21,872 bases of DNA, taken from positions 1 to 21,872 of IMG/VR virus record IMGVR_UViG_3300046009_005103; one strand, 5' to 3'. Source of the DNA: a virus. The translations under genes were made by a program, and so were the position numbers. Position 1 is the stretch's first letter; every line of letters begins with the position of its first letter. Under the pieces are notes generated by a model. It saw only the letters and a program-made list of their open reading frames with translations, had not been told where the DNA came from and did not search any database. Shown here piece by piece: positions 1 to 21,872 of this stretch.

Positions 1-48
1 TCTGCCCTGCTATCTGCCCTGCTATCTGCCCTGCTATCTGCCCTGCTA
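1..48. repeat. Four tandem copies of a 12-bp repeat at the window edge
   Basis: Four perfect consecutive copies of TCTGCCCTGCTA fill positions 1-48. The array may continue to the left of the window. It directly adjoins the TGTAGGCAGT motif array and shares a CTGCC core with it, so it may be part of the same origin or operator region. No reading frame is evident. Confidence 0.9.
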
Positions 49-137
49 GTGTAGGCAGTCATTTAGGCATATGTAGGCAATTAAAAACAGTGTGACTGCC
101 TACGCCTGCGCCCAGTGTTGGCGTGGGTTTGCGCGAT

Positions 138-264
138 TGTAGGCAGTGTAGGCAGTCTATTTTCTGCCGCTCTTTTATATATATATTATTATATACCTTA
201 TTATTATTATGGTATATATTATAACTTTTTCTGTATAGAAAATAGACTGCCTACACTGCCTACA
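138..264. repeat. Perfect 28-bp inverted repeat flanking an AT-rich core
   Basis: The left arm (138-165) and right arm (237-264) are perfect reverse complements over 28 bp. Each contains two motif copies in tandem plus the extension CTATTTTCT. The 71 bp between them are almost entirely A and T from about 175 to 230. They contain a smaller nested dyad, TATATACC (190-197) with GGTATATA (211-218). This could be an origin with a DNA-unwinding element, a cruciform, or a long-stem RNA. A short open frame of 65 codons crosses it, but it is composed of the repeats and is not credible as a gene. Confidence 0.85.
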
Positions 265-328
265 CCCTTTGCCAAACCAATAGCGGCGCTGTCTCGCGCG
301 TGGGCAGTCTAAGTGTCATTTAACTGCC

Positions 329-361
329 TACGCACCACCTACGCACCACCTACAAAACACC
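329..361. repeat. 11-bp tandem repeat TACGCACCACC
   Basis: TACGCACCACC occurs at 329-339 and 340-350, followed by a degenerate third unit, TACAAAACACC, at 351-361. The first unit overlaps the end of an ACTGCCTAC motif. It lies between the inverted repeat and the ardA promoter region. Confidence 0.8.
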
Positions 362-423
362 CTTTGTAATAAAAAGTATTGCATTTACTGTTTAATGCTG
401 TATATTGTTTTGCAAGTCATCCA

Positions 424-452
424 TTTTGATGACTGCCTACATTAACTACACT
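424..452 (+). promoter_or_regulatory. Candidate promoter of the ardA operon with an embedded motif copy
   Basis: A -10-like TACACT (447-452) lies 17 bp after a weak -35-like TTTTGA (424-429). The start codon of ardA is at 467. The motif GACTGCCTAC (431-440) fills most of the spacer, so a protein bound there would block RNA polymerase. The -35 match is poor, so the exact promoter is uncertain. Confidence 0.4.
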
Positions 453-466
453 ATAGAGAAAATATC

Positions 467-949
467 ATGAAAATTTACGTTTCGACATATGCTAAATATA
501 ACGCCGGCAATTTAGACGGCGCGTGGCTAACCTTAAGCGACTACAATGACGCGGAACAATTTATTGATGCTTGCAAGGAACTACACAAAGATGAAATTGA
601 CCCTGAATTGATGTTTCAAGATTTTGATGACATACATAAAAATTATTGTAATGAATGTATCGATATGCAAGAAGTCTATTACTATGCTAACGCTTGCAAT
701 GCTGACATTAAAGATATTATTGATGCAGGGCTTGATTGTGAAATACCGCTTGATTCAATCATGAACGCGTATCAGGGCCAATATGATAGTGATAGCGATT
801 TTGCCTATGATATGGCCGAACAATGTGGATACTTAACTTTAGAAACTAACGCGTGGCCATATAATTGCATTGACTGGCATAATGCCGCGCGCGAATTAAT
901 GTTTGATTTTAACCAATCTAACGGCCATTATTTTTCTAATAACTGGTAA
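467..949 (+). CDS. ardA: ArdA-family antirestriction protein (DNA mimic)
   Basis: A 160-aa protein with the ArdA pattern: an N-terminal strand (MKIYVSTYAKYNAGNLDGAW), a central acidic helical region, and the C-terminal block YDSDSDFAYDMAEQCGYL followed by WPYNCIDWHNAARELM. ArdA proteins are elongated dimers that mimic bent B-form DNA and occupy type I restriction-modification enzymes, and some affect other DNA-binding proteins. By eye it has about 31 Asp/Glu against 7 Lys/Arg, as expected of a DNA mimic, and its length is normal for the family. It is the first gene of a rightward operon, next to the repeat array, a position that suits early expression after DNA entry. The Shine-Dalgarno sequence is weak (GAGAAA). 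The family call is firm; the target is inferred. Confidence 0.9.
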   Translation: MKIYVSTYAKYNAGNLDGAWLTLSDYNDAEQFIDACKELHKDEIDPELMFQDFDDIHKNYCNECIDMQEVYYYANACNADIKDIIDAGLDCEIPLDSIMNAYQGQYDSDSDFAYDMAEQCGYLTLETNAWPYNCIDWHNAARELMFDFNQSNGHYFSNNW

Positions 950-1029
950 AAGATTTCAACGTATAGCGCGTGGCCAGCTCGCGCGTTATGCGATGCAATT
1001 TCGCATCAAATAAAAATAATGGCTTAACA

Positions 1030-1296
1030 ATGAAAACATATAAAATTTTATCAATTGACGCGTGGCGTGAATGTGACGGCTACACCTGGAACGCGTGGTA
1101 TGACGCGGGCGATATTGATGCTGATGCAATTCACTGGACCACGCGCAAGTTATTGAAATATTTTCGCGATAATGGTTTTCTAACGCAAAAAAGCGCGGGT
1201 AAATGTGCAATTGATGATGACCAGTACAATATTGTTATTGTTGAACGTTCAACGCGCCGGCCCCTGTTTGCAATTGAATATGGGGTAGACAGCTAA
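1030..1296 (+). CDS. Small phage protein of unknown function
   Basis: An 88-aa protein beginning MKTYKILSIDAWRECDGYTW. I chose the ATG at 1030, although the frame is open further upstream (from 970), because this start matches the MKTY-type starts of its neighbours and the upstream part translates to low-complexity sequence. It is rich in Trp and Asp in the first half (WNAWYDAGDIDADAIHW) and ends with predicted strands (YNIVIVERSTRRPLFAIEYG), suggesting a small alpha/beta fold. I do not recognise a named family. The stop overlaps the next start as TAATG. Sitting behind ardA, it is a candidate accessory or anti-defence gene by position only. Confidence 0.7.
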   Translation: MKTYKILSIDAWRECDGYTWNAWYDAGDIDADAIHWTTRKLLKYFRDNGFLTQKSAGKCAIDDDQYNIVIVERSTRRPLFAIEYGVDS

Positions 1297-1514
1297 TGAA
1301 AACAATATATCTAGAATTTATTGACGCCCCTATGTGGTATCACACGCGCGGACTAATGCAAACAGCGACGGGTTACGGTCGTAAACTAAACACTGGCAAA
1401 AAAGCGTTAGTTGGAAATAGAGATTATCGCGTTTATGCGTCTTGCTTTTCTAATGTAGCGTGTCTCTATATCATCATTAAAGGCGTAAAAATTTACGTCG
1501 ATAGTTGGAAGTAA
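1296..1514 (+). CDS. Small protein of unknown function
   Basis: A 72-aa basic protein beginning MKTIYLEFIDAPMWYHTRGL, with a C-terminal strand-like segment (VACLYIIIKGVKIYVDSW). It starts within the stop of the previous gene (TAATG), which indicates translational coupling. The MKT-hydrophobic start resembles the genes at 1030 and 1519, but I see no extended alignment. No catalytic or binding motif is apparent. It is basic, unlike ArdA and the acidic protein at 1961, so it is not a DNA mimic. Confidence 0.6.
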   Translation: MKTIYLEFIDAPMWYHTRGLMQTATGYGRKLNTGKKALVGNRDYRVYASCFSNVACLYIIIKGVKIYVDSWK

Positions 1515-1518
1515 TAAT

Positions 1519-1716
1519 ATGAAAACATATTTAATTAATGATGATGAATTGTTCAATTATAGAATTGAATCTAATAATTTTAATCAAGCTATAGCACTAT
1601 TTAAAGACTTATATCGCGTTCAAGGCCGGTTACGGTTGACGGCGCGTTATGCAAACGTTAAAGAATACAAACTAGACAAGTCTAGCTATAAATTTTCAAT
1701 TCGTGAGATGCAATAA
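1519..1716 (+). CDS. Small protein of unknown function
   Basis: A 65-aa protein beginning MKTYLINDDELFNYRIESNN. Its central helix-like segment (NFNQAIALFKDLYRV) is followed by a basic part (RLRLTARYANVKEYKLDK). The start lies 4 bp after the previous stop, and its own stop overlaps the next start (TAATG). The fold may be a short strand-helix-strand unit. No family is recognised. Confidence 0.6.
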   Translation: MKTYLINDDELFNYRIESNNFNQAIALFKDLYRVQGRLRLTARYANVKEYKLDKSSYKFSIREMQ

Positions 1717-1952
1717 TGAAAAAATTTAATTTAAAAAACGGCGGCGGTTGTACCGTTTACGCTTTTATGTGTGGGTACGGTGATGTTATTACTAACGATG
1801 ATTTTGAATTATCTTTGTTTCATAACGGTGGCGTAGGTTATGACGTAAAGTTACGCGACGAAACGCGCGGCGTTAACGCTTGCTGGGTAACGTTTGAAAG
1901 TGTAAAACACGCACGCGCAATGTTTAAAACAATAAAAAATTTGATTCAATAG
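1716..1952 (+). CDS. Small protein of unknown function
   Basis: A 78-aa protein beginning MKKFNLKNGGGCTVYAFMCG. It contains a strand-rich middle (DFELSLFHNGGVGYDVKL) and a C-terminal helix (VKHARAMFKTIKNLI). It has four Cys but no CxxC pair, so a zinc site is unlikely. It is coupled to the preceding gene by a TAATG overlap. Codons are AT-rich like the rest of this operon. No family is recognised. Confidence 0.6.
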   Translation: MKKFNLKNGGGCTVYAFMCGYGDVITNDDFELSLFHNGGVGYDVKLRDETRGVNACWVTFESVKHARAMFKTIKNLIQ

Positions 1953-1960
1953 GTGTAATA

Positions 1961-2194
1961 ATGAATACAATTGATAGCATTAAAAATTCTATTAATAAAA
2001 TAGAAGACATTTATGGTGTTGATGTTGCGTTAAAATTAAGCTTACAATTAGAAAATTGTCTAAATTGTGAGTGGTATTATGACGATTTAAATGAGACGCT
2101 GTTTTCTGAAGACTTTAATTTATGTAGTGATGATTTAAACGGTATTAGAGATGTACAATTTTCAATACTTCAATTTTTTGGGGTTGAAAGATGA
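1961..2194 (+). CDS. Small, strongly acidic protein of unknown function
   Basis: A 77-aa protein with about 15 Asp/Glu and only 5 Lys/Arg. The N-terminal helix (SIKNSINKIEDIYGVDVALKL) is followed by an acidic, aromatic segment (CEWYYDDLNETLFSEDFNL) and a hydrophobic end (VQFSILQFFGVER). The preceding AGGTG supplies a ribosome binding site. Size, charge and proximity to ardA make a DNA-mimic or inhibitor role worth considering, but no family is recognised. Its stop overlaps the next start as ATGA. Confidence 0.65.
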   Translation: MNTIDSIKNSINKIEDIYGVDVALKLSLQLENCLNCEWYYDDLNETLFSEDFNLCSDDLNGIRDVQFSILQFFGVER

Positions 2195-2253
2195 TAATAA
2201 TATTTTTGATTCTAGTAAAATTCGCGGTCCTGGCGGTATTACTGGAAAGCTAA
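2191..2253 (+). CDS. 20-aa hydrophobic peptide, possible single-span membrane peptide
   Basis: The frame reads MIIIFLILVKFAVLAVLLES and begins in an ATGA overlap with the stop of the preceding gene. It ends 4 bp before the stem of the first terminator, so it fits exactly in the remaining operon space. Apart from Lys10 and the C-terminal Glu-Ser it is entirely hydrophobic and just long enough to span a membrane. The coupling and composition argue for a real gene, but so short a frame could occur by chance. Confidence 0.4.
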   Translation: MIIIFLILVKFAVLAVLLES

Positions 2254-2257
2254 ACAA

Positions 2258-2283
2258 GGGGCGGCTAACAACCGCCCTTTTTT
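2258..2283 (+). terminator. Intrinsic terminator of the ardA operon (first)
   Basis: The stem GGGCGG (2259-2264) pairs with CCGCCC (2272-2277) around a 7-nt loop, followed by six T residues (2278-2283). It lies just after the last small gene of the rightward operon. Confidence 0.9.
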
Positions 2284-2301
2284 ATTGCATCAAACAATAT
2301 C

Positions 2302-2324
2302 AAGGCCTTAACAGGCCTTTTTTT
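2302..2324 (+). terminator. Second tandem intrinsic terminator
   Basis: The stem AAGGCCT (2302-2308) pairs with AGGCCTT (2313-2319) around the loop TAAC. A run of seven T residues spans 2318-2324. It sits about 20 bp behind the first terminator, giving double termination of rightward transcription. Confidence 0.85.
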
Positions 2325-2513
2325 ATTGCCTATCATTTAACGCGTGTTAATAGCATATAGACTGCTATAAATAGCTTAGCAATACCCTAGTATTGCCTAA
2401 CATTCAATCAGCTTGCAGCAAGCCGATAAAGGCTATAAAAACGCCCTATACAATGCCAGGCGCGGGCGTAAAATCACGCGTGAACTTGATGAAACGCGCA
2501 TATATGAAGGATA

Positions 2514-2615
2514 GGAATTTCAAATCTGGGGATGCTCAGGATTTCAAATCTAATGAACGCTCAATTTTTGCCACGAAACGATTTGCAAAATTTTGCCACG
2601 AAACCAAATGACAAA
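2514..2615. repeat. Two consecutive imperfect tandem duplications
   Basis: A 25-bp unit built on GGA-TTTCAAATCT...GCTCA occurs at 2514-2538 and 2539-2563. It is directly followed by a 26-bp unit, ATTTT(T)GCCACGAAAC... ending ACAAA or GCAAA, at 2564-2589 and 2590-2615. A third unit start (ATTTTTT) begins at 2616. Neither unit length is a multiple of three, which argues against long-term coding selection here. Confidence 0.8.
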
Positions 2616-2681
2616 ATTTTTTCTGAATTCTTGAAAATGATAATTGCCGGTGTTGATGCTGCGTATCAGCCTACGCATTAA
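2532..2681 (+). CDS. Possible 49-aa protein in the convergent gap
   Basis: The frame starts at ATG 2532 (an inner ATG is at 2553) and stops with TAA at 2679-2681. Its C-terminal half, KIFSEFLKMIIAGVDAAYQP, looks like an amphipathic helix of a real protein. Against it, the frame lies over the tandem duplications, there is no convincing ribosome binding site at either start, and it lies beyond two rightward terminators, so it would need its own promoter. It may be a remnant of a decayed gene. Confidence 0.25.
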   Translation: MLRISNLMNAQFLPRNDLQNFATKPNDKIFSEFLKMIIAGVDAAYQPTH

Positions 2682-2774
2682 CTATCAATAAAACGCCCGT
2701 TACTTCTTCCAAACAATTACACATCGATTTGCAATTGTTGGCTTTACCGAGGTTTCCCCGCTTTCGCGCATTAT

Positions 2775-2805
2775 ACTATAACTCTAAGCGCTTAGAGGTT
2801 ATAGT
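2775..2805. promoter_or_regulatory. Strong palindrome, possible operator
   Basis: The centre CTCTAAGCGCTTAGAG (2782-2797) is a perfect 16-bp palindrome. It is extended by ACTATAA (2775-2781) and TTATAGT (2799-2805), interrupted by a single extra G at 2798. Neither side has a T-tract, so it is a poor intrinsic terminator and more like a dimer binding site. A leftward TATAAT (2775-2770) and a rightward TATACT (2772-2777) overlap its edge, but no good -35 was seen for either. Confidence 0.5.
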
Positions 2806-2844
2806 AAGGACTCTGCTATCTTTCAAGGCGTTTTATTCATAGCT

Positions 2845-2882
2845 AAAAAATTCCCCAATTACCCGAGCCGATAATTGAGGAA
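2845..2882 (-). terminator. Intrinsic terminator of the leftward replication operon
   Basis: On the minus strand TTCCTCAATTA (2882-2872) pairs with TAATTGGGGAA (2861-2851), giving 11 pairs with one G-U and a 10-nt loop. Six T residues follow (2850-2845). It lies 40 bp after the primase-helicase stop and closes the operon. Confidence 0.85.
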
Positions 2883-2921
2883 CACATGAACTAACAATTA
2901 GAGAGAATTGTTAAAGGTAGT

Positions 2922-5195
2922 CTACTTAATCGCTACAACTTTTGCAACAGGTTTTTGCTCTGCCATATCACGCAGCGCAGACTTGCTCATGTGTGCAAAC
3001 TCAGGCGCGCAGAAGACGTGCTTCTTAGTATTAGACGAGCGCGAATTGCACATTCCCTTATCAGCCCACCCAGCTTCTTCAAGTGCATGAAACAAAGCAG
3101 CAGGTGGAAATTGTTTACTGCCAAACGACATAGCGGCACGCTCACAAATGGCTTGAAAGGGGGAGGCAATCACACCGGATGCAAACTCACCCATACGCAG
3201 CGTAATCATGTCAAGCAGCGACGACTCAACAGCGGACAGACTATTCTGCACAAGTGACATTTTAAAGTCTGTCATAGGCGCAGGCGCAGCAGGGTTGAAC
3301 GCAGACACATCACGCAAGAACAACCAGTTAGCGATAAGGTCATAACCACCGCCGTCGTTAAACCATTTCCATATAGCGGTAGCTGATTGCGGCGCAAGAC
3401 GCTCCGCCGTACTCCAAGTAGCAAACCAACGACGGTCTCCCGATTCAAGTGACAACGGTACACGGTCATTCGAAAACGCAAGCACAGCAAGACGGTTCAC
3501 GAGATTGTAGGGGGCAAGGCCTTTACGGTTAACGGATAGCATCTCAGGTGGCGCGGCGATAACAGGCTTAAGTTTGTTGGCAAGCATCCGACGGGCGGCG
3601 CTGTCGGCTTCTTTAAGCTCATTAATAACAATAACCTCTGCTTCTAAATGATACCCCCACGCAGATTGAATGGTGTCAGTAGACATGAGCGAGTAATTGC
3701 GCAAATGAGGGCCGCACACGGCGTAAATGAATGGGGCATACATCGTATCCTTACCAATACCTTGACCGCCGGCGTGAAGAATAGCGTGGTTAATCTTAAC
3801 GCGCGGGTTCTGCACCTTGAACGCCATGTAATCCCATATATGGTTAAGCTCACGCTCGTCTGGAACAAGCGATTTACAGTGGTCAAGCCACAAGGATATA
3901 TTCCCGCCCAAATTTCCGCCACGAGATGAATCTGGACGGGCGTCACGCCATCGGTTGCCATACAATTCACCGTCACGCGTAGCAATCACCGAGTCACCCG
4001 CAGCAAAGGTGATACCTGCCAGCACTCTAGCGCCCATCACCTGACGGTTTTCATCAAAGCTCATGGCGGCTTCTATCTTGCGGTCGGAGTGAATACTTTT
4101 GCACGACACATGACGAAACACGGCGTTGAACGTCTGACGTGAGAATTCACGACGGTTTTGCAAATCAAAGTAGGAATCGTCTGACATGACGTAAGCAAAG
4201 CGTTGATACCACTCCGCCTTTTCAAGCCGCGCGATTTCCTTCTGCTCAACTTCTGCAATGATAGCCGCCGCGTCGGTGCTGAACATATCAGACGGCTCAA
4301 GTTTGCCAATCGCTGTGTGCATGACCTCCGCGAGTATTTCCTCACGAAGACCATGTGAGTGCTTAGGTCCACCCATCTCAGCTACCCATGCGAGGTAAGC
4401 ACGGCTGTCCCACAACGAGCAATGCCCATGAAAGCAACAGTACGCGCGGTTAAGCGGATGGTATCTGCCCATCAACTGACCGTCAGTATGCTCAGCGTGG
4501 TTAGGGCAAACAACGCCCACCCACCCCTCAGCGTTAGCAGACTCTAAAATATCGCCACGAGAAGACAACCACTCCAGCACATCGTCGTTGCCTGTGTCGA
4601 TGATAGCAATCGGGCGCACTGTCGCCGTGTCAGCGTCAGACGGGTGAACATCAAGCGCCGAGCAAATTTGGTCAAGCGTAAACTCACGCTCAGGGTGAAA
4701 CTCCACGAGAATAGATTTGAACGACGCACGGTCAGGCTTCAAATTGACTGACGCAGGAAGGCGAAAATTACGCACGGGGTTAATCGCGCCACTGTCAGTA
4801 TAGCCAGCGTCAGCGATTGCCTTAATAGCCGCGCTAAACTCGCCCTTAGTTGGCATATCATCAAGCGCGAAAGTGTAGCCCCATTGATAATTCTGCGGTG
4901 AGGTTTCCATTATCCATGTCGGCTCGATAGGAGGACGCAAACTCTTGGTGCCAATGTCGTCAAGCACGAGGAAAGCAACGTACTCGCAGTTGCCTGCACT
5001 CGCAGACGGTTTACCATCTTTAAAACGTGACGTGATAAACGACGCGGTATTGCCATACCACGCGCCTTTGTTATCGTATCGAGAAGGAAGATAAGCAGGC
5101 CATGCAAACTGACCGTTATCTTTAGCAATTTGTTTGACCAAAAGGATACTTTCGCCTTCAGGCGCGATACGTTCCAAGTAAGTGATAAAATTCAT
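2922..5195 (-). CDS. Replicative primase-helicase (AEP-type primase + zinc finger + SF3 DUF5906-like helicase)
   Basis: A 757-aa protein predicted to prime and unwind phage DNA. Residues 1-200 resemble a RepB/AEP-type primase: the acidic pair in FLVLDD (D79, D80), the segment ETSPQNYQWGY (97-107) and the basic NFRLPASVN (143-151). A zinc finger follows, with C230, H236, C254 and C259 (CPNHAEHT ... CCFHGHC). The C-terminal ATPase has Walker A GGQGIGKDT (476-484), a Walker B-like VIVINELKE (521-529), a sensor FSND (574-577) and a likely arginine finger in GDRRW (586-590). I chose the ATG at 5195 rather than the upstream in-frame one at 5252, because it gives an ATGA overlap with the polymerase stop and a family-like N terminus. 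It is the last gene of the operon, with a terminator behind it. The exact family names are from memory. Confidence 0.88.
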   Translation of the reverse strand: MNFITYLERIAPEGESILLVKQIAKDNGQFAWPAYLPSRYDNKGAWYGNTASFITSRFKDGKPSASAGNCEYVAFLVLDDIGTKSLRPPIEPTWIMETSPQNYQWGYTFALDDMPTKGEFSAAIKAIADAGYTDSGAINPVRNFRLPASVNLKPDRASFKSILVEFHPEREFTLDQICSALDVHPSDADTATVRPIAIIDTGNDDVLEWLSSRGDILESANAEGWVGVVCPNHAEHTDGQLMGRYHPLNRAYCCFHGHCSLWDSRAYLAWVAEMGGPKHSHGLREEILAEVMHTAIGKLEPSDMFSTDAAAIIAEVEQKEIARLEKAEWYQRFAYVMSDDSYFDLQNRREFSRQTFNAVFRHVSCKSIHSDRKIEAAMSFDENRQVMGARVLAGITFAAGDSVIATRDGELYGNRWRDARPDSSRGGNLGGNISLWLDHCKSLVPDERELNHIWDYMAFKVQNPRVKINHAILHAGGQGIGKDTMYAPFIYAVCGPHLRNYSLMSTDTIQSAWGYHLEAEVIVINELKEADSAARRMLANKLKPVIAAPPEMLSVNRKGLAPYNLVNRLAVLAFSNDRVPLSLESGDRRWFATWSTAERLAPQSATAIWKWFNDGGGYDLIANWLFLRDVSAFNPAAPAPMTDFKMSLVQNSLSAVESSLLDMITLRMGEFASGVIASPFQAICERAAMSFGSKQFPPAALFHALEEAGWADKGMCNSRSSNTKKHVFCAPEFAHMSKSALRDMAEQKPVAKVVAIK

Positions 5196-7111
5196 TTTCC
5201 ATATCTCTCTAATGTTGATACACCAACCGCTAAGGGTAATCCTTCTGCCCACGCAGGGGCGCTACACATCACGGTTTCCAAGTCTTGCGCGGCTGTCGCC
5301 GCGTCTTCTTTTTTCACTTCTAGCACAATCTCGTCGTGAACATGAAGCACGACATTATGCTCGATTCGACGCAAAGCGTCACGAAGTAAATCATTTGCAA
5401 TCGCCTGTGTAATATTCTCACAAGCAAGTCCAGCCCATAGCCTAGCTCGCGGCCATTCGACTGCATCAGCAGCGGGTTTCCACGCCGCCTTAGCGTAAGA
5501 TACCGACCCGTCTTCAATATATGCTGACGGATAACACAGCACCCGACCAGACGGCAGGGCGTACCACAAATTCACACCGTCAAACAGATACGTCACGCGA
5601 CCAGCGGTAAACTCACGCCCCTTATGGCGCATGGCGCACATATATGCCCGCTCAAGCTCACCCCAATACTGCACCGCCCATGAGTTACTGCGACGCCACG
5701 CGTCAACGGTACGTTTAGCTTCAGCTTCAGGCAGTGAAATGCCGTAGGCTTTACCCATCGCGCCAAACGCGCCCGCGCCACCCATATAGCCGCACGACAG
5801 AATAGCGACTTTACCAATCTGACGTTGGTCAGGCGTTATCATATCCATTGGACGATTAAAGATACCAGCAGCGGCACGGACGTAAATGTCCTCGCCACTG
5901 CGAAACACGTTAAGCACATCTTCACTGCCATGCTGCAAACTCGCCCAAGGCGTCACACGCGCTTCAATACCTGCCCAATCTGCTACCACGAAAACATTAC
6001 CGACGGCAGGCATCAGCGCAGGGCGAAGCATACCCTTTAAAACGTCAGTAACACGCTTGCCATGCACCGGAACAATGTCACGCCCAACGACCATATCATC
6101 ACGCACCCGTTGTGGCTCTTTAGCGCATTTACGCGTGAAGTTATGCACCTGCGCACCGTACGACGACGCTCGGCCAGTCGCACTGCCACCATTGAACACA
6201 AACGCGCCACGCACACGATGGTCTTCAAAATCTGCAAGAGAAAGCAAACGACTAAACTTCGCCACAGACGACGCCCACAAATCATCAGCGCACTGAATAA
6301 CCTCCGCAACGTGCGGTGGAATTTCCTCAAGGTTGTCCATCAATAGCAAATTAGCGCGAACGCTTTTGTCAATGGAATACTTCTCACCGTTCCACATCAG
6401 CGCTCGTGCAGACTCACCAACACGCTCAAGCACCCACTCACGCATCTTCGGTGAACGAACAGACTTAATTGCTCCGTCAGTTAGCTCCACGACGCGAGAT
6501 TGGATTTCCTCAAGCTCAACACTGGCATAACGCATCGCGGCGCGGCACAAGTCAACGTCCACAAGAACGCCCGCGTCGTTAATGCGCTCGTTGACGTGAT
6601 AGTCTAGTAGCTCACTATCTGTCAACTGACGCAGTGCAGTAGACACGGCTCGCATGGTTCTCACGTCTTGACGACAATACTCAATAAGCTCAGGCAACAG
6701 CTTGGTGTTGAAAGGAGGAGTACAGCACTGCTTGACCAGCATCTTGCCACGATGGTCTTTGCGCATCTCGCTAGAGATAGCACGACCAACATCTTCAAGA
6801 CTGCCCGGAAGGCAATTTGCTCGTGCTTGCACAGCCGTGCAGTAAAACTGCTCCAACTTAAAATCTATCTGTAGAACGTACCAGAATATTAAACGCTCAA
6901 ACGCGGCGTTATGCGCCCGTATCTGACCCGTGAAGTTGCGAACGTTGTCAGGAAATGGCATATCAGGCGTCCATGTTTGCACGTCTTCATCATCAAAGGC
7001 GTAGCACATACACAGCACGTCAGTGGTCAAATCTTGCGCGTAATTGTAAACGCCATGTTTAGGCAAGTCACATTCGCTTTTTGTTTCGAAATCGATATAA
7101 AGTATAGGCAT
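5192..7111 (-). CDS. Family A DNA polymerase with 3'-5' exonuclease domain
   Basis: A 639-aa phage replicative polymerase. The exonuclease has motif I YIDFETK (D7, E9), motif II AHNAAFER (N68, E72; Glu replaces the usual Asp) and motif III YCRQD (Y145, D149). The polymerase has TGRASSYGAQ (312-321), motif A VADWAGIEAR (D378, E383), motif B RQIGK...GY (R430, K434, Y442) and motif C VHDE (591-594). Leu438 occupies the position equivalent to F762 of E. coli Pol I by my alignment. There is no 5' nuclease domain, as usual for phage enzymes. It overlaps the primase-helicase by ATGA. Its start codon directly follows the U-tract of an intrinsic-terminator hairpin, with the Shine-Dalgarno sequence on the far side (see separate entry), so expression may be attenuated or structure-dependent. 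Confidence 0.95.
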   Translation of the reverse strand: MPILYIDFETKSECDLPKHGVYNYAQDLTTDVLCMCYAFDDEDVQTWTPDMPFPDNVRNFTGQIRAHNAAFERLIFWYVLQIDFKLEQFYCTAVQARANCLPGSLEDVGRAISSEMRKDHRGKMLVKQCCTPPFNTKLLPELIEYCRQDVRTMRAVSTALRQLTDSELLDYHVNERINDAGVLVDVDLCRAAMRYASVELEEIQSRVVELTDGAIKSVRSPKMREWVLERVGESARALMWNGEKYSIDKSVRANLLLMDNLEEIPPHVAEVIQCADDLWASSVAKFSRLLSLADFEDHRVRGAFVFNGGSATGRASSYGAQVHNFTRKCAKEPQRVRDDMVVGRDIVPVHGKRVTDVLKGMLRPALMPAVGNVFVVADWAGIEARVTPWASLQHGSEDVLNVFRSGEDIYVRAAAGIFNRPMDMITPDQRQIGKVAILSCGYMGGAGAFGAMGKAYGISLPEAEAKRTVDAWRRSNSWAVQYWGELERAYMCAMRHKGREFTAGRVTYLFDGVNLWYALPSGRVLCYPSAYIEDGSVSYAKAAWKPAADAVEWPRARLWAGLACENITQAIANDLLRDALRRIEHNVVLHVHDEIVLEVKKEDAATAAQDLETVMCSAPAWAEGLPLAVGVSTLERYGK

Positions 7112-7145
7112 AAAAAAAGGCGGCTTTTTAGCCGCCCTTCTCCTT
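7112..7145 (-). terminator. Terminator hairpin lying between the Shine-Dalgarno and the ATG of the polymerase gene
   Basis: On the minus strand the order is AAGGAG (7145-7140), three bases, a 7-bp stem GGCGGCT/AGCCGCC with a 4-nt loop (7136-7119), seven T residues (7118-7112), then the polymerase ATG at 7111. The hairpin plus T7 is a textbook intrinsic terminator within the operon. The Shine-Dalgarno is 28 nt from the ATG in linear distance, but only 10 nt if the folded hairpin is looped out. It may cut polymerase transcription relative to the upstream gene and, when read through, help position the ribosome. Confidence 0.85.
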
Positions 7146-7150
7146 ATCGG

Positions 7151-7795
7151 TTATGCGCGTCTGCGGCGGGTGGCAGGCGCGTCATCTTCGATGACTTCTT
7201 GAGGTGTGTCTTCTGAAGGTTCGCCGTCAAGGCTAATCCACTGCACAATGTCAAACATCGGCGTGTAGATACGCCCGTAGGCTTTGTGCTGATAGTGTTC
7301 TTTACCAAGAGATACAACAGCAACAGGTTTAGTTTGGTCTGTTTCTACTTGGTTGGCAATGTTTACGGCTAGTGTTTGCACGGCGCGTTTACCGCCCACG
7401 CTGGTGACTGTGTAGCGTACTTCTTCACCTTTGTCTTCACCATCGATACATTTGAGGGAAAATCCCACTTGCGTTTCCCAACCGCGTTTAGCGGCGGCAG
7501 GCGCAGGCTCAACTTGTGGCAATGGCTCAGTCACGCTAACCATTTTCTCACCTAACACTTCACCTTCACCCCATGCAATAAAACCGTGCGTGAAACTAAA
7601 AGGGTTAACTGCCCACACGCTATCGTTGTCCACTTCAGTTTCAGACGCGCCATATACCCAGTGACCTGTTCTGTCCATTTTAAGGATAGTCACGCCACCT
7701 GCGCTGTTGGTGTCAGTCTGAATGTTACGAAGTGCAGTAGAGATGCTGTTAACGGCTGGAAGGTTGGCGTTGCCAAATACAGATACGTTGTTCAT
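7151..7795 (-). CDS. Putative single-stranded DNA-binding protein (by context)
   Basis: A 214-aa protein between the DUF2800-type nuclease and the polymerase, the slot where related phage replication modules carry an ssDNA-binding protein. It is strand-rich and aromatic in the middle (GHWVYGA, VWAVNPFSFTHGFIAWGEGE, LGEKMVSVTEPLP). A Pro/Ala linker (PQVEPAPAAAK) separates this from a second part (GWETQVGFSLKCIDG ... FDIVQWISLDG). The tail is acidic (EPSEDTPQEVIEDDAP) and then switches to TRRRRA. An acidic tail is common in ssDNA-binding proteins, but the basic end is atypical. I cannot assign it to DUF2815 with confidence. It has a good ribosome binding site (AAAGG) 12 bp behind the previous gene. 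Confidence 0.65.
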   Translation of the reverse strand: MNNVSVFGNANLPAVNSISTALRNIQTDTNSAGGVTILKMDRTGHWVYGASETEVDNDSVWAVNPFSFTHGFIAWGEGEVLGEKMVSVTEPLPQVEPAPAAAKRGWETQVGFSLKCIDGEDKGEEVRYTVTSVGGKRAVQTLAVNIANQVETDQTKPVAVVSLGKEHYQHKAYGRIYTPMFDIVQWISLDGEPSEDTPQEVIEDDAPATRRRRA

Positions 7796-7807
7796 TTTAG
7801 ATTACCT

Positions 7808-8926
7808 TTAAAGTTTATTGAGGGCGTTTGTTAATTGTTGCCCGATTAATAAGACAGTAGGGCGCGGGTCAGATTCGTGCGCCATTGTACTGCCAGAAGA
7901 TACCACTGCGACAACATCATCCGGCATGGGCAGTTTCAGAGCCTTTAATTTCTTCTCTGCTTGCGCCGGCGAAACCAATTTGGAATCGTAGATGTCATCA
8001 TTTGTCAGACCAAGAGCCAAAAGCGATTCGACTGCTTGCGCCTCATTAGTCCATTTTCTTGTTCCCCGCTTTGCAACAAGTTTGTAGTTTGGGACAGGTT
8101 TGCCCGCTTCAAGCATTTGAAACGCTAATGCTCTCAAATCGGTAATCCATTGTTCCAGAATTTCAGCTTGTTGTAAATAGTTTGCAATAGATTCTGCATC
8201 AATATTATCTAGCGTTGCTTTAAGCGCCCTATCTACCTCACCTGTCATTAACGGACAAGTTGGTTTAGCCGCGCACCACTTGCAGTGTTTGCCACTGGCT
8301 AACGGTGCATCAGGTGTTTCAGACAAATCGATAGCTTTCTTGAGCGTTTTCTCAAACTCACGAATGCGTTTAGCATTAGTTTTCCAGCGCTTAACGGACG
8401 GGGGCTGAACAATCACAAGCTCAATAGACGCCGCGCCATCAAACACCCATTCTAGCCCTTTTGTGCGCATAGCGGCGGCGGCGTAGAACATGAGCTGCTC
8501 GTTTTCTTCTACTTCCACGCTAACGCCACTGCCAAATTTCCAATCTAGGATAACAGCGCGGTCCCCAAGTCTACCGATAAGGTCAACGCTACCAAACACG
8601 TCAGGCAAGAAATCACCGTAGCTTACATTAGCTTCAACGGTAAACTCCATCGATTTAGAAGGGTCAAGTTCATCAAGCGCCGCCAGCGCCGGTTCAATCT
8701 TTTCTTTTGCCAACTCAGTCGTCATATCAATGCCCGCATACGACAAACTGTAAATGTTAAAGTTATCCTCAGTGAGCAGTTTTTCCATTGCAAGGTGGCA
8801 AAGCGTCCCTTCATCGGCATACGATGATGATGGTTTAGGTGGCATTTGTTGCACCAGTTTAACACTGGCAGGACACGCAATAACTCGTTTAGCGGTGCTA
8901 CCGCCGGCAATATTTGAATGGCTCAT
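7808..8926 (-). CDS. DUF2800 / Cas4-RecB-like PD-(D/E)XK nuclease with Fe-S cysteines
   Basis: A 372-aa protein with the hallmarks of the RecB/Cas4 nuclease superfamily. EGTLCH (39-44) supplies the first motif and H44, VFGSVD (110-115) gives D115, ILDWKFG (126-132) gives D128 and K130, and EQLMFYA (143-149) is the QxxxY motif. Cys18 with C215, C218 and C224 (HCKWCAAKPTC) would bind a 4Fe-4S cluster, as in Cas4 and AddB. Such proteins are thought to process DNA ends during phage recombination and replication; the exact role of DUF2800 is not established. It begins in an ATGA overlap with the 38-aa gene upstream and precedes the ssDNA-binding candidate. C-terminal residues 230-372 are helical with no motif I recognise. 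Confidence 0.9.
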   Translation of the reverse strand: MSHSNIAGGSTAKRVIACPASVKLVQQMPPKPSSSYADEGTLCHLAMEKLLTEDNFNIYSLSYAGIDMTTELAKEKIEPALAALDELDPSKSMEFTVEANVSYGDFLPDVFGSVDLIGRLGDRAVILDWKFGSGVSVEVEENEQLMFYAAAAMRTKGLEWVFDGAASIELVIVQPPSVKRWKTNAKRIREFEKTLKKAIDLSETPDAPLASGKHCKWCAAKPTCPLMTGEVDRALKATLDNIDAESIANYLQQAEILEQWITDLRALAFQMLEAGKPVPNYKLVAKRGTRKWTNEAQAVESLLALGLTNDDIYDSKLVSPAQAEKKLKALKLPMPDDVVAVVSSGSTMAHESDPRPTVLLIGQQLTNALNKL

Positions 8927-15982: not shown

Positions 15983-17287
15983 TTAACTGTTTTTAATGCC
16001 ATAAAGTCTAAAAGTACCTGTTATATCGCCAATAGACCTAAATAATCTAATGCCCGTTAAAGCACCAGTGTTGTTTCTAGCTCCAACCCCGCAGGCTTGT
16101 TGATTATTAGCTGGGTCAGTGCCCATAAAATACACAGCTTTACGCGTTGTTGTAGAAGCAGGCGTAGGAATATATATAGTAAAACTTTGCGCATATCCAG
16201 AGGTGGCCGCCCCACTAGCACATAATTGTATATAGTTGTCATTTTGCGCCCCTGTTGTATTAGGAGTGCTATATGAGTAGGTATAAGAGTAGTTATATTC
16301 GCCTGAGCCGGTATATGTACCCCCTATTTTTATTCTCATAAATAACGATGATGCCGTAGTTCCGTAGCAATTAACAACCGTAAGTGCATACATATCGTAA
16401 GTAGAATCAAATGTTGTTTCTATATCCGCTGTAGCCGCGCCTGCCGCAGTAACAGTAGATAAGTATACCCACCCTCCGCCTCCTGCTGGCGTGCTAGAAG
16501 ACCATGTAGTGCCATTAGAAGTTAGTACATTACCAGAAGCCCCCGGAGCAACAACTTGCAAAGCGCTTGTACCGTTACCTAACAAAACACTATTAGCAGT
16601 TAAAGTTGTTGCGCCAGTTCCCCCATTATTTACTGGAAGCGTACCTGTAACGCCTGTTGATACAGGAAGACCCGTACAGTTTGTTAGCGTACCGCTAGAA
16701 GGTGTACCAAGCGCAGGCGTAATAAGCGAAGGTGAATTTGCAAATACTGCTGCACCACTTCCTGTTTCATCCGTTAACGCAGCCGCTAAGTTAGCGCTGG
16801 ACGGCGTTGCAAGAAACGCCGCTACGTTTGTTCCAAAACCTGTAACGCCTGTTGATACAGGAAGACCCGTACAGTTTGTTAGCGTACCGCTAGAAGGTGT
16901 GCCAAGCACGGGAGTTACAAGAGTGGGGGAGGTAGCAAATACCGCTGCACCGCTTCCTGTTTCGTCAGTTAATGCAGCCGCTAAATTTGCACTTGAGGGT
17001 GTTGCAAGAAACGTCGCTACGTTTGTGCCTAATGAAGCAGAAAGCACCACCTGTTCATAGCGTACACTGTCCCCCGCAGACGTGCCAGCGGCAAGTCCTG
17101 TGAGTTTTTTAGCGTTCATTGGCAAGTTAGCTGACGGCGTAGACTGACCGTCACGCGTGATACAGTTTGTCAACGCCGTTGCAATGTCACTGTTGGTTGT
17201 GTTAGTTGTTGATGATGAAATCGTTGTGCCGGTAACAACGGGGTTGCCAGCAGGCAGGTTATATGTCCCAGAGCCATTAAAAGCCAT
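15983..17287 (-). CDS. Tail fibre / receptor-binding protein with internal repeats
   Basis: A 434-aa protein. Residues 1-80 form an N-terminal region with the fibre-type block ANLPMNAKKLTGLAAGTSAG (53-72), presumably for attachment. Residues 87-151 and 152-216 are near-identical 65-residue repeats containing FLATPSSANLAAALTDETGS and LGTPSSGTLTNCTGLPVSTG, typical of fibre shafts. NNGGTGATTLTANSVLLGNG follows as a linker. From about residue 275 (GGGWVYLST) to the end (TFRLYGIKNS) lies a strand-rich, aromatic domain, probably the receptor-binding tip. A strong AGGAG precedes the start, which overlaps the previous stop (TAATG). Confidence 0.88.
   Translation of the reverse strand: MAFNGSGTYNLPAGNPVVTGTTISSSTTNTTNSDIATALTNCITRDGQSTPSANLPMNAKKLTGLAAGTSAGDSVRYEQVVLSASLGTNVATFLATPSSANLAAALTDETGSGAAVFATSPTLVTPVLGTPSSGTLTNCTGLPVSTGVTGFGTNVAAFLATPSSANLAAALTDETGSGAAVFANSPSLITPALGTPSSGTLTNCTGLPVSTGVTGTLPVNNGGTGATTLTANSVLLGNGTSALQVVAPGASGNVLTSNGTTWSSSTPAGGGGWVYLSTVTAAGAATADIETTFDSTYDMYALTVVNCYGTTASSLFMRIKIGGTYTGSGEYNYSYTYSYSTPNTTGAQNDNYIQLCASGAATSGYAQSFTIYIPTPASTTTRKAVYFMGTDPANNQQACGVGARNNTGALTGIRLFRSIGDITGTFRLYGIKNS
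16640..17029 (-). repeat. Two 195-bp direct repeats in the tail fibre gene
   Basis: The blocks 16640-16834 and 16835-17029 encode the two 65-residue shaft repeats and are highly similar in DNA. For example, a stretch starting CCTGTAACGCCTGTTGATAC occurs at 16644 and again at 16839. The first half of the units differs mainly at third codon positions. Such repeats allow the shaft to lengthen or shorten by recombination. Confidence 0.85.
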
Positions 17288-20165: not shown

Positions 20166-21665
20166 TCACCAATTGACAATAACAGGCTGTTTAGGCGCTG
20201 CGGGTTGACTAACAGGCTGTTGAACAGGTTGTTGAACAGGTTGTTGAACAGGTTGTTGAACAGGTTGTTGAGGATTAGCAAGTCGAGCGCTAATGTCGGC
20301 AGTGCCTGTTTTAAAACTTTCAAGTCTGTTATCAGCTTCTCGTCGTAAAGTTTCAATAGCTTTTCTATATGTTTCAGGGCTGTCGGCAGTGCTTAACATT
20401 TCACGAGCGTGTTTAGCCGCTGCAACAGATACGGCTGAAGACCCCGTGCTGCCGGACATAATTTTAGCATACTCATTAACGGCAGTTTCGGTAGCGTTTT
20501 TAAACGATTTTAATTCAGGGTTTTGGACACCGCTTGATTGCCATGACTGAATAAGTTGATTAGCTATTGGAGATTTAGTCCGCGCAACGGTATCGCTAAA
20601 TTCAAGTGCCATTTGAGCATTTTTATCAAACGTATCACTAAAGTTTTTAGCGGCTTCAAATTGTTTAGTCTGCGCCCCTAATGCTGACGTGCCAGCTTTA
20701 GAGGTAGCGCTTCCGCTTACAATAGCATTAACATCGCCGCCATTTTTAGCTAGCCACTCTTGGTAACGAAGTTGAGTTTTGGCAGGGATTCTAGGGTTCA
20801 TTCCGGCTTGTTGCCCTTTATAAAGTTGCCCAAAAGAAGCATTTTCTGAATCCGTAAACGATTTAGTTTCCCCGCCCAATGCCCCGCCAGCAGAAGCATA
20901 AGGCTTGATTTCCCCTGTACGATGGTCAATGACGCCAACAGAACCGTCCGGCAATGACACCGAAGAATATGAAGGCGTACCGCCGCTATTTGGTGAAGGA
21001 ATCATGTGTATGTCCATGCGATTTTGCCGATTTAAATCGCCTTGTTCACCTTGAAAGTTAATGTTTTTGTCTTGTCGAGTATTTTTACCTTGCTCAGTTT
21101 GCGACAACATCCACCGTCTAAGGTCTGCGGTGTCTTGAGCGGCTATTCTTCGCGCTTCTCTATTAGCTTGATTATTGCCTATAGTTTGCGCCATAGCGCC
21201 AACTTCAGGATTAACAACTGACATTGCTAACGATTGACGGTCTATATCTTCAGGCGACACGCCTTTAGCTACATTTTGCGCCATAGGCTGTGCAGGAACT
21301 GATTGAGGTTGGTCGCCTCCTGTAACAAAAGCAGAAGTTTTATCCCACCAAGATGGTTTTTGCTCTGGCGTCCCAGCCTGCAACGCCATTTCTGGCGGCG
21401 CTTCCATCCCCATAGAATTTAACCCCCTAATAGTGGCTGCTGTTTTTTCACGCTCTGCCTTGTCCAAATCTTCTCTAGCGCCGCTTTCTTGATACGCGCC
21501 AATGATATTTTGCAACGCGCCAAGCGCGGCTCCACCAGTATTAGGGACGTACCATCCGCTAACCATTTGACCAGCCGCAATATTATCGCCTTTTTCTTGT
21601 AACTTACGAGCTAAAGCAATTCTATCTTTAGCACCAAGCACTTTTTCATCGTATAAACTAGCCAT
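20166..21665 (-). CDS. Virion-associated protein with C-terminal QPVQ repeat tail
   Basis: A 499-aa protein starting MASLYDEKVLGAKDRIALAR. ATG 21665 is preceded by GGAGG and overlaps the preceding stop by 8 bp; upstream in-frame sequence is the shadow of the neighbouring gene. The N-terminal 70 residues are helical with a Gly/Ala patch (TGGAALGALQNIIGAY). A charged, Gln/Asn-rich middle follows, then a strand-type module (SYSSVSLPDGSVGVIDHRTG, about 230-250) and a long helical C-terminal part. The end is a low-complexity tail of five QP-type tetrapeptides followed by PAAPKQPVIVNW. No enzymatic motif is seen. Its position before the 957-aa protein suggests an internal or ejection-type virion protein. 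Confidence 0.6.
   Translation of the reverse strand: MASLYDEKVLGAKDRIALARKLQEKGDNIAAGQMVSGWYVPNTGGAALGALQNIIGAYQESGAREDLDKAEREKTAATIRGLNSMGMEAPPEMALQAGTPEQKPSWWDKTSAFVTGGDQPQSVPAQPMAQNVAKGVSPEDIDRQSLAMSVVNPEVGAMAQTIGNNQANREARRIAAQDTADLRRWMLSQTEQGKNTRQDKNINFQGEQGDLNRQNRMDIHMIPSPNSGGTPSYSSVSLPDGSVGVIDHRTGEIKPYASAGGALGGETKSFTDSENASFGQLYKGQQAGMNPRIPAKTQLRYQEWLAKNGGDVNAIVSGSATSKAGTSALGAQTKQFEAAKNFSDTFDKNAQMALEFSDTVARTKSPIANQLIQSWQSSGVQNPELKSFKNATETAVNEYAKIMSGSTGSSAVSVAAAKHAREMLSTADSPETYRKAIETLRREADNRLESFKTGTADISARLANPQQPVQQPVQQPVQQPVQQPVSQPAAPKQPVIVNW
20211..20270 (-). repeat. 12-bp coding minisatellite (QPVQ tail)
   Basis: Four perfect copies of AACAGGTTGTTG (20223-20270) follow one variant copy, AACAGGCTGTTG (20211-20222), on the plus strand. 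In the minus-strand gene they encode repeated Gln-Pro-Val-Gln units near the protein C terminus. The 12-bp length preserves the frame, so copy number can vary without harm. Confidence 0.9.
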
Positions 21666-21872
21666 TAGAGCCTCCAAATAGCCCATTCCACTTGTTCTGC
21701 AAACCTTTTGTAAAGTCGCCTTGGTCGGGTGTTTTTGCTTGTTGCGCAGCAAATTGAGGGTCAAACTTCCCAAACTCGTCAGCATACTGCTGCGCGTCGC
21801 TTTTGCCAGCTTCTTTAATGTTTTGGTAGCCTTTAGCAAGCATCTTACCATTCTCCATTATAGACTGCGCTG
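21658..21872 (-). CDS. 3' part of a gene continuing beyond the window
   Basis: The frame is open from the window edge and ends at 21658, giving at least 70 residues. The Met at 21858 has no ribosome binding site (upstream bases are GCAGTCTATA), so it is more likely internal. The visible C terminus (MENGKMLAKGYQNIKEAGKS, DAQQYADEFGKFDPQFAAQQ, FTKGLQNKWNGLFGGSNG) is Gln-rich, helical and ends in a Gly-rich tail, resembling small internal virion proteins. It overlaps the start of the 499-aa gene by 8 bp. Confidence 0.55.
   Translation of the reverse strand, partial: AQSIMENGKMLAKGYQNIKEAGKSDAQQYADEFGKFDPQFAAQQAKTPDQGDFTKGLQNKWNGLFGGSNG

Follow-up and report, generated by a model that had tools for sequence, protein, structure and literature searches.

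Where does this phage begin to copy its genome, and which of its proteins recognizes the site? The question is raised by the first few hundred bases of the window, by which we mean the whole stretch of DNA that was analyzed, an entire viral fragment from IMG/VR with a length of 21,872 bases. An initial annotation had described an iteron-like array there, interpreted it as an origin of replication, and supposed that the binding protein could be the product of one of the unknown small genes.

An Iteron Array Around an AT-Rich Core

The array is present as described. The motif GTAGGCAGT has eight exact copies, all within positions 1-470, and the rest of the window has none; the copies are not scattered at random. 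Allowing one mismatch gives 13 copies in the window, 10 of these inside 1-470. For GTAGGCAGTC, with at most two mismatches, ten sites in both orientations are located between positions 50 and 440 (Table 1). Dinucleotide shuffles of positions 1-470 were used for comparison: the commonest 9-mer, observed 8 times, reached a maximum of 3 in 100 shuffles, and the longest perfect inverted repeat, observed at 28 bp, reached a maximum of 16 in 40 shuffles. The perfect 28-bp inverted repeat and its AT-rich center with a nested dyad were likewise confirmed. The two arms, 71 nt apart, each consist of two tandem iterons; the center has a GC content of 18%, and the dyad within it is 82% complementary. The region combines clustered short non-coding repeats (8 exact copies in 470 bp) with an AT-rich element beside them that is kept in relatives, as is typical of iteron-type origins.

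Two other tandem repeats had been counted as part of the same signal. Both exist; however, the one at 327-353, CCTACGCACCA, looks like degenerate iterons when read on the minus strand (GTAGGTGGTG; likewise in L004 and L016), whereas the one at 1-48, four copies of TCTGCCCTGCTA, forms a minisatellite of its own at the contig end, variable among relatives. The contig breaks at this minisatellite. The spot beside the array is hypervariable, with relatives carrying CAGCACC, CCTGAGGATGTCAG, or other tandem repeats where the window has the minisatellite.

Table 1. Coordinates of the array, its parts, and the genes discussed in the text (positions in the window).
Feature	Position	Strand	Basis
Iteron array, putative replication origin	50-440	.	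Repeats, shuffles, position in relatives
Outer left iterons: 51-60 (+), 73-82 (+, 2 mismatches), 94-103 (-)	51-103	.	Motif sites
Left arm of the 28-bp inverted repeat; tandem forward iterons 139-148 and 148-157	138-165	+	Sequence
AT-rich core, 18% GC, presumed unwinding element; imperfect dyad 187-203/205-221	166-236	.	Sequence; relatives
Right arm of the inverted repeat; tandem reverse iterons 245-254 and 254-263	237-264	-	Sequence
Outer right iterons: 300-309 (+), 322-331 (-), apparent degenerate copies in 327-353 (11-bp tandem repeat)	300-353	.	
Promoter-like element TTGCAT-N16-TATATT	379-406	+	Read by eye; TATAAT in many relatives
Last iteron, inside the leader of the first early gene	431-440	-	Motif site
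Primase-helicase, 776 aa, DUF5906, proposed initiator	2922-5252	-	Domain and structure matches
C-terminal winged-helix domain (residues about 672-764), proposed iteron reader	2961-3239	-	Predicted structure, covariation
Wing loop, codons 736-741; residues 736, 738, and 741 covary with iteron bases	3030-3047	-	
Family A DNA polymerase, same replication block	5192-7111	-	Domain matches

The first gene past the array (467-949) encodes an ArdA antirestriction protein (E = 2.3e-20) that was not found in every relative. The leader sequence of the first early gene has a short inverted repeat at 415-434, TCATC-CATTTT-GATGA, whose pairing is kept in relatives with other bases (TCGTC/GACGA, TCAGCA/TGCTGA, and TTAAAA/TTTTAA). 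The promoter-like element in Table 1 is absent from the output of a consensus promoter scan, and Rfam and tRNA scans of the window gave no matches. The array and the stop codon of the primase-helicase gene are roughly 2.5 kb apart, with the early operon between them; an exonuclease is encoded in the window besides the primase-helicase and the polymerase. Two further repeats lie within genes: a 195-bp direct repeat (16643-17026; 2 copies, 86%) in the gene for a 434-aa protein (15983-17287), and a 12-bp tandem repeat (20211-20271; 5 copies) encoding the repeated QQPV stretch of a 561-aa protein (20166-21851).

Position and Layout of the Array in Related Phages

A protein scan returned a close set of 50 loci with helicases 90-98% identical, to which the window was added as number 51. 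The array is present in 43 of the 51; the other 8 (L006, L009, L015, L019, L039, L045, L050, and L052) all end before terS and have no countable array. In close relatives with terS in sight, the array is located between terS and the divergent early operon. The motif GTAGGCAGT itself is absent in some of them, an absence that the initial annotation had regarded as speaking against an origin, but L049 (= G004), L043, L014, and other close relatives have a variant array, GTAGTCAGT, in the same place. Two core types were distinguished: type A, that of the window, and type B, in which GTAGGCAGTGTAGGCAGTGTAGGCACTGCCTAC precedes AAGTCGC, with close variants included. The type B loci (L013, L032, L034-L038, and L040) resemble phage MW202483, which carries GTTGGTAGT iterons at the matching genomic place. 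MW202483 is the nearest named relative of the window, the sole match among named phages in a DNA search with positions 1-7900, and has P22-like portal and coat genes. Phages with 92-98% helicase identity to the window thus far differ in core type, some having A and others B. One locus, L067/G005, was set aside: the motif is present there as a tandem pair, but neither an array anchor nor a terS match was found.

In one relative (G002:C1:1-37640), the array is found at both contig ends, which suggests that this genome is circular or circularly permuted and was cut at the array. Palindromes are present near terS (L012:10233-10500, L049:7440-7760, and L071:28220-28593): those of close relatives are of the type GTCA-N-TGAC, and MW202483 has several copies of GTTTAYGTAAAC. 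The GC-skew analysis that the initial annotation had proposed was uninformative: in G001-G004 and MW202483 the extrema do not fall reliably at the array, and none is clear there.

More distant loci were collected in two profile scans. The first gave 35 further loci at 55-62% identity; the second gave at least 73 new loci, and removal of L157 and L204, which repeat L093 and L119, left 71. The distant arrays keep their position, a few hundred bases from terS, and have other iterons, for example TGTGGACA, TGTAGTCA, TATTGGCA, AATTGTCA, and ATAGTCAT. Among the 79 distant loci with terS in sight (distinct contigs; for the second scan, among the matches listed), k-mers revealed the array in 68; motif counts detected it in 10 of the other 11, and L182 is doubtful. 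Across the 68 loci, 432 forward and 109 reverse iterons lie to the left of the AT core, and 68 forward and 262 reverse iterons to its right. Often, two forward iterons lie 65-105 bases ahead of the core center and two reverse iterons 20-47 bases beyond it, and the array of the window follows the same plan. The minimum GC content of the core averages 0.16 in the 68 loci, compared to 0.37 in windows taken from the helicase gene.

Divergent transcription units flank the array, a promoter-like element is found at 379-406, and the leader of the first early gene includes one iteron. Such a setting would also suit an operator through which the helicase or a repressor controls the divergent terS and early promoters, while replication starts elsewhere. 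We consider this unlikely: an operator does not usually require some ten sites placed in symmetry about an AT core, the layout stays constant while the iterons change, and the covariation described below is with the replicative helicase. A dual role of the array, as operator and origin, is possible.

Domains and Predicted Structure of the Primase-Helicase

The protein that we propose as initiator contains a D5/SF3-like helicase domain, with DUF5906 above its cut-off and a match to the helicase part (CTR) of the NrS-1 protein at E = 6e-10 in the profile search and E = 6e-9 in Foldseek. For a possible primase domain, the match to RepB_primase (E = 0.0034) falls short of the cut-off for that family, and Foldseek returned S-2L PrimPol and RepB' with E-values of 7e-5 to 9e-5, presumably through the N-terminus. 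The model of the full helicase is of moderate quality (pLDDT 68); its best PDB match is the NrS-1 CTR, then S-2L PrimPol and RepB', and weaker matches include poxvirus E5, ASFV PrimPol, and SaPI PriRep1 (E = 1.3e-3).

The C-terminal domain, modeled on its own, is predicted to be a winged helix (pLDDT 80, pTM 0.68) with the order helix-strand-helix-helix-strand-loop-strand-helix. In this model, residues 736-741 are in, or immediately beside, the loop joining the two wing strands. Its matches in the PDB are to generic winged helices and are modest (best E 0.067, best Z 6.8). The P4 origin-binding domain, a winged helix of the alpha protein (PDB 1KA8), was not among the matches listed in structure and profile searches with the C-terminal domain.

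Two small enterobacterial plasmids (L216 and L217; 2 of 10 plasmid hits examined) have 5 and 9 short repeats (L216:4468-4571 and L217:3000-3339, respectively) close downstream of a gene for a DUF5906-type primase-helicase, which fits such proteins acting as initiators.

Covariation Between Iterons and Helicase Residues

In the close relatives, we tested SNPs of six genes for association with the share of GTCA against GGCA iterons in 30 deduplicated class A loci (L020, L041, L043, and L051 were omitted as duplicates, and L047 for want of a class label). The best of 845 SNPs was helicase codon 732 (K/M, p = 2.7e-4), followed by codons 671/672. No SNP in exo, ssb, terS, or terL had p < 0.01, and one in polA had p = 0.007. 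The codon 732 signal does not survive correction for 845 tests and weakens to p = 0.009 once the class B loci join (39 loci); it therefore serves as a pointer only. A model in which residue 732 reads base 5 was dropped, because class B arrays pair GGCA iterons mostly with V or M at this position.

In the distant relatives, the loop 736-741 is among the places where the C-terminal domain varies. A rule relating arginine at 738 to TGT[AG]G iterons was recorded before the array of L089 was read; L089 has R at 738, and its array then showed TGTAGGCA, while its sister L088 has alanine and ATAGTCAT. For the loci of the second scan, which were held out, the rule was written out beforehand and iteron base N2 was called before the helicase residues were inspected; the calls were made by hand from k-mer consensus strings, with a frame that was fixed after the training set. 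Among the matches listed, 52 of the 71 held-out loci were callable, and 49 of these agree with the rule (G accompanies R in 29 loci, and another base accompanies another residue in 20; R occurs with a base other than G in 3, and G without R in 0; Fisher's exact p = 1.4e-11). The three exceptions, L152, L154, and L156, combine R with TGTTAGTCA, in which the TG is one base further out. A further exception is MW202483, with G2 and a proline at 738. Of the 19 loci that could not be called, 18 were long enough to be re-examined, in this case without residue blinding; among the 11 with terS in sight, an array was found in 10, broadly as the wing suggests, with L182 the doubtful one. L182 and L187 are mixed with regard to the rule. 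In a bacterial genome bin, L213 has R at 738 together with TGTAAGCA repeats, in accordance with the rule.

We then scanned all columns of the helicase alignment in 77 loci. The association of N2 = G with R738 gave the top column (37/3/1/36; Fisher's exact p = 2.9e-17), and columns 741 and 736 came next, both at 6e-13. The scan for bases N4 and N6, from which L086 and L118 were omitted, likewise has its peaks at columns 741 and 736. The best columns of the control proteins reached 1.5e-3 for the exonuclease (42 loci), 2.7e-3 for SSB (46 loci), 2.0e-3 for PolA (68 loci), and 6.8e-4 for TerS (69 loci), whereas helicase column 738 retained 1.1e-14 on the PolA loci and 3.8e-16 on the TerS loci. terL was unusable as a control, being present in one locus. 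To account for shared ancestry, pairs of loci that are independent on the tree were drawn from a FastTree phylogeny calculated with the wing columns removed: in 13 such pairs differing in N2, R follows G in 10.3 on average and the opposite occurs in 0.0 (median p = 0.002). These associations indicate that the phage's own primase-helicase recognizes the iterons through residues near the tip of its last domain.

The same data bear on three other explanations of the array. Its distance of a few hundred bases from terS in relatives would fit a packaging (pac) site read by TerS, but the best TerS column is far behind helicase 738 on the same 69 loci, and the best of 45 TerS SNPs in the close relatives has p = 0.078; we regard a pac site as very unlikely. 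The initial annotation's suggestion of a small early-operon protein as initiator draws on the several small uncharacterized genes that follow the array. These genes come and go among relatives, with none of the six early genes searched (ArdA and p2-p6) found in all array-bearing relatives, whereas the wing residues of the helicase predict the iteron in all but three of the callable held-out loci; the suggestion is therefore unsupported, and we rate it as highly improbable. Clustered inverted sites can also act as centromeres, and the array might accordingly serve the partition or maintenance of a prophage in a plasmid-like state. However, the 11 open reading frames of the window that were submitted gave no ParA or ParB match in Pfam or PHROGs, and the covariation is with the helicase, so that this explanation seems extremely improbable.

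A Putative Origin and Its Proposed Reader

The initial interpretation is thus supported in part, for the origin but not for the small-gene initiator. The array is very probably the site where copying of the genome starts, and we hold with considerable confidence, on the strength of sequence comparisons, that it is an iteron origin and that the phage's primase-helicase reads it with its C-terminal domain, a predicted winged helix. The origin is the best-supported reading because position, layout, and AT core are kept, the repeats occur only here, and the iterons covary with a replication enzyme. Several C-terminal winged-helix domains of helicase subunits would occupy the 9-bp iterons on either side of the AT core; one or more helicase rings would load or assemble over or beside the core, the core would melt, and the PrimPol domain, together with the phage family A polymerase, would start the forks.

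In kind, an iteron origin with a self-loading primase-helicase is ordinary; what is unusual is the clarity of its repeated natural re-coding, which involves a few wing residues and the whole array. For this podovirus-like group, we lean slightly towards an evolvable origin recognition code, in which changing two or three residues of the wing loop (736, 738, and 741) re-targets the helicase and the whole array follows. If this is true, the group contains many mutually orthogonal pairs of origin and initiator on one conserved chassis, and the driver may be satellites, defence, or superinfecting relatives that exploit the origin.

The analysis proposes an origin and an initiator for a large group of uncultured phages, and it points to a possible function of the C-terminal domain in DUF5906 primase-helicases, whose Pfam family is labeled as unknown. 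The loci form a natural and internally controlled data set in which an initiator and many DNA sites appear to shift specificity together. The residue-to-base rule yields direct predictions of binding and could supply orthogonal origin/helicase pairs. In the open-access literature (subscription journals and preprints were outside the scope), we found no prior report of such covariation between origin and helicase.

Comparison with Known Systems

The best reading of the locus is an iteron origin similar to those of P4 alpha and the SaPIs, with the C-terminal domain of a DUF5906 primase-helicase as the reader. In P4, the alpha protein unites primase and helicase parts with a winged-helix domain that binds the origin repeats (PMC4234260); the same arrangement is predicted for the window. 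Unlike P4 alpha, whose primase is of the Toprim type (PMC4234260), the protein from the window resembles RepB'/PrimPol at its N-terminus. Furthermore, the P4 domain is absent from the sequence and structure matches listed for the window helicase, and the window phage has its own family A polymerase.

SaPI Rep and SCCmec Cch2 are self-loading helicases with a C-terminal domain that binds short iterons (PMC7581432), as we propose here, and SaPI PriRep1 is a weak structural match of the window helicase. Their origins are directly downstream of the helicase gene; in contrast, the putative origin of the window lies across the early operon, beside terS.

The primase-polymerase-helicase of NrS-1 provides the nearest solved helicase part. 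In the portion of the NrS-1 report used, its Tail domain is called a novel fold, and an 8-nt site with two genomic occurrences is put forward as a possible origin (PMC7102993); that portion reports no iteron array, unlike what is found here.

The closest published case of covariation that we found is that of the RepA_N/origin modules of PLE, a Vibrio satellite (PMC8263062). There, the DNA-binding domain of the initiator covaries with the iterons as a swappable module, which is the likeness to the present phages. The PLE initiator is of the RepA_N type and its iterons are about 30 bp long, whereas here a primase-helicase is paired with 9-bp iterons, and few residues change.
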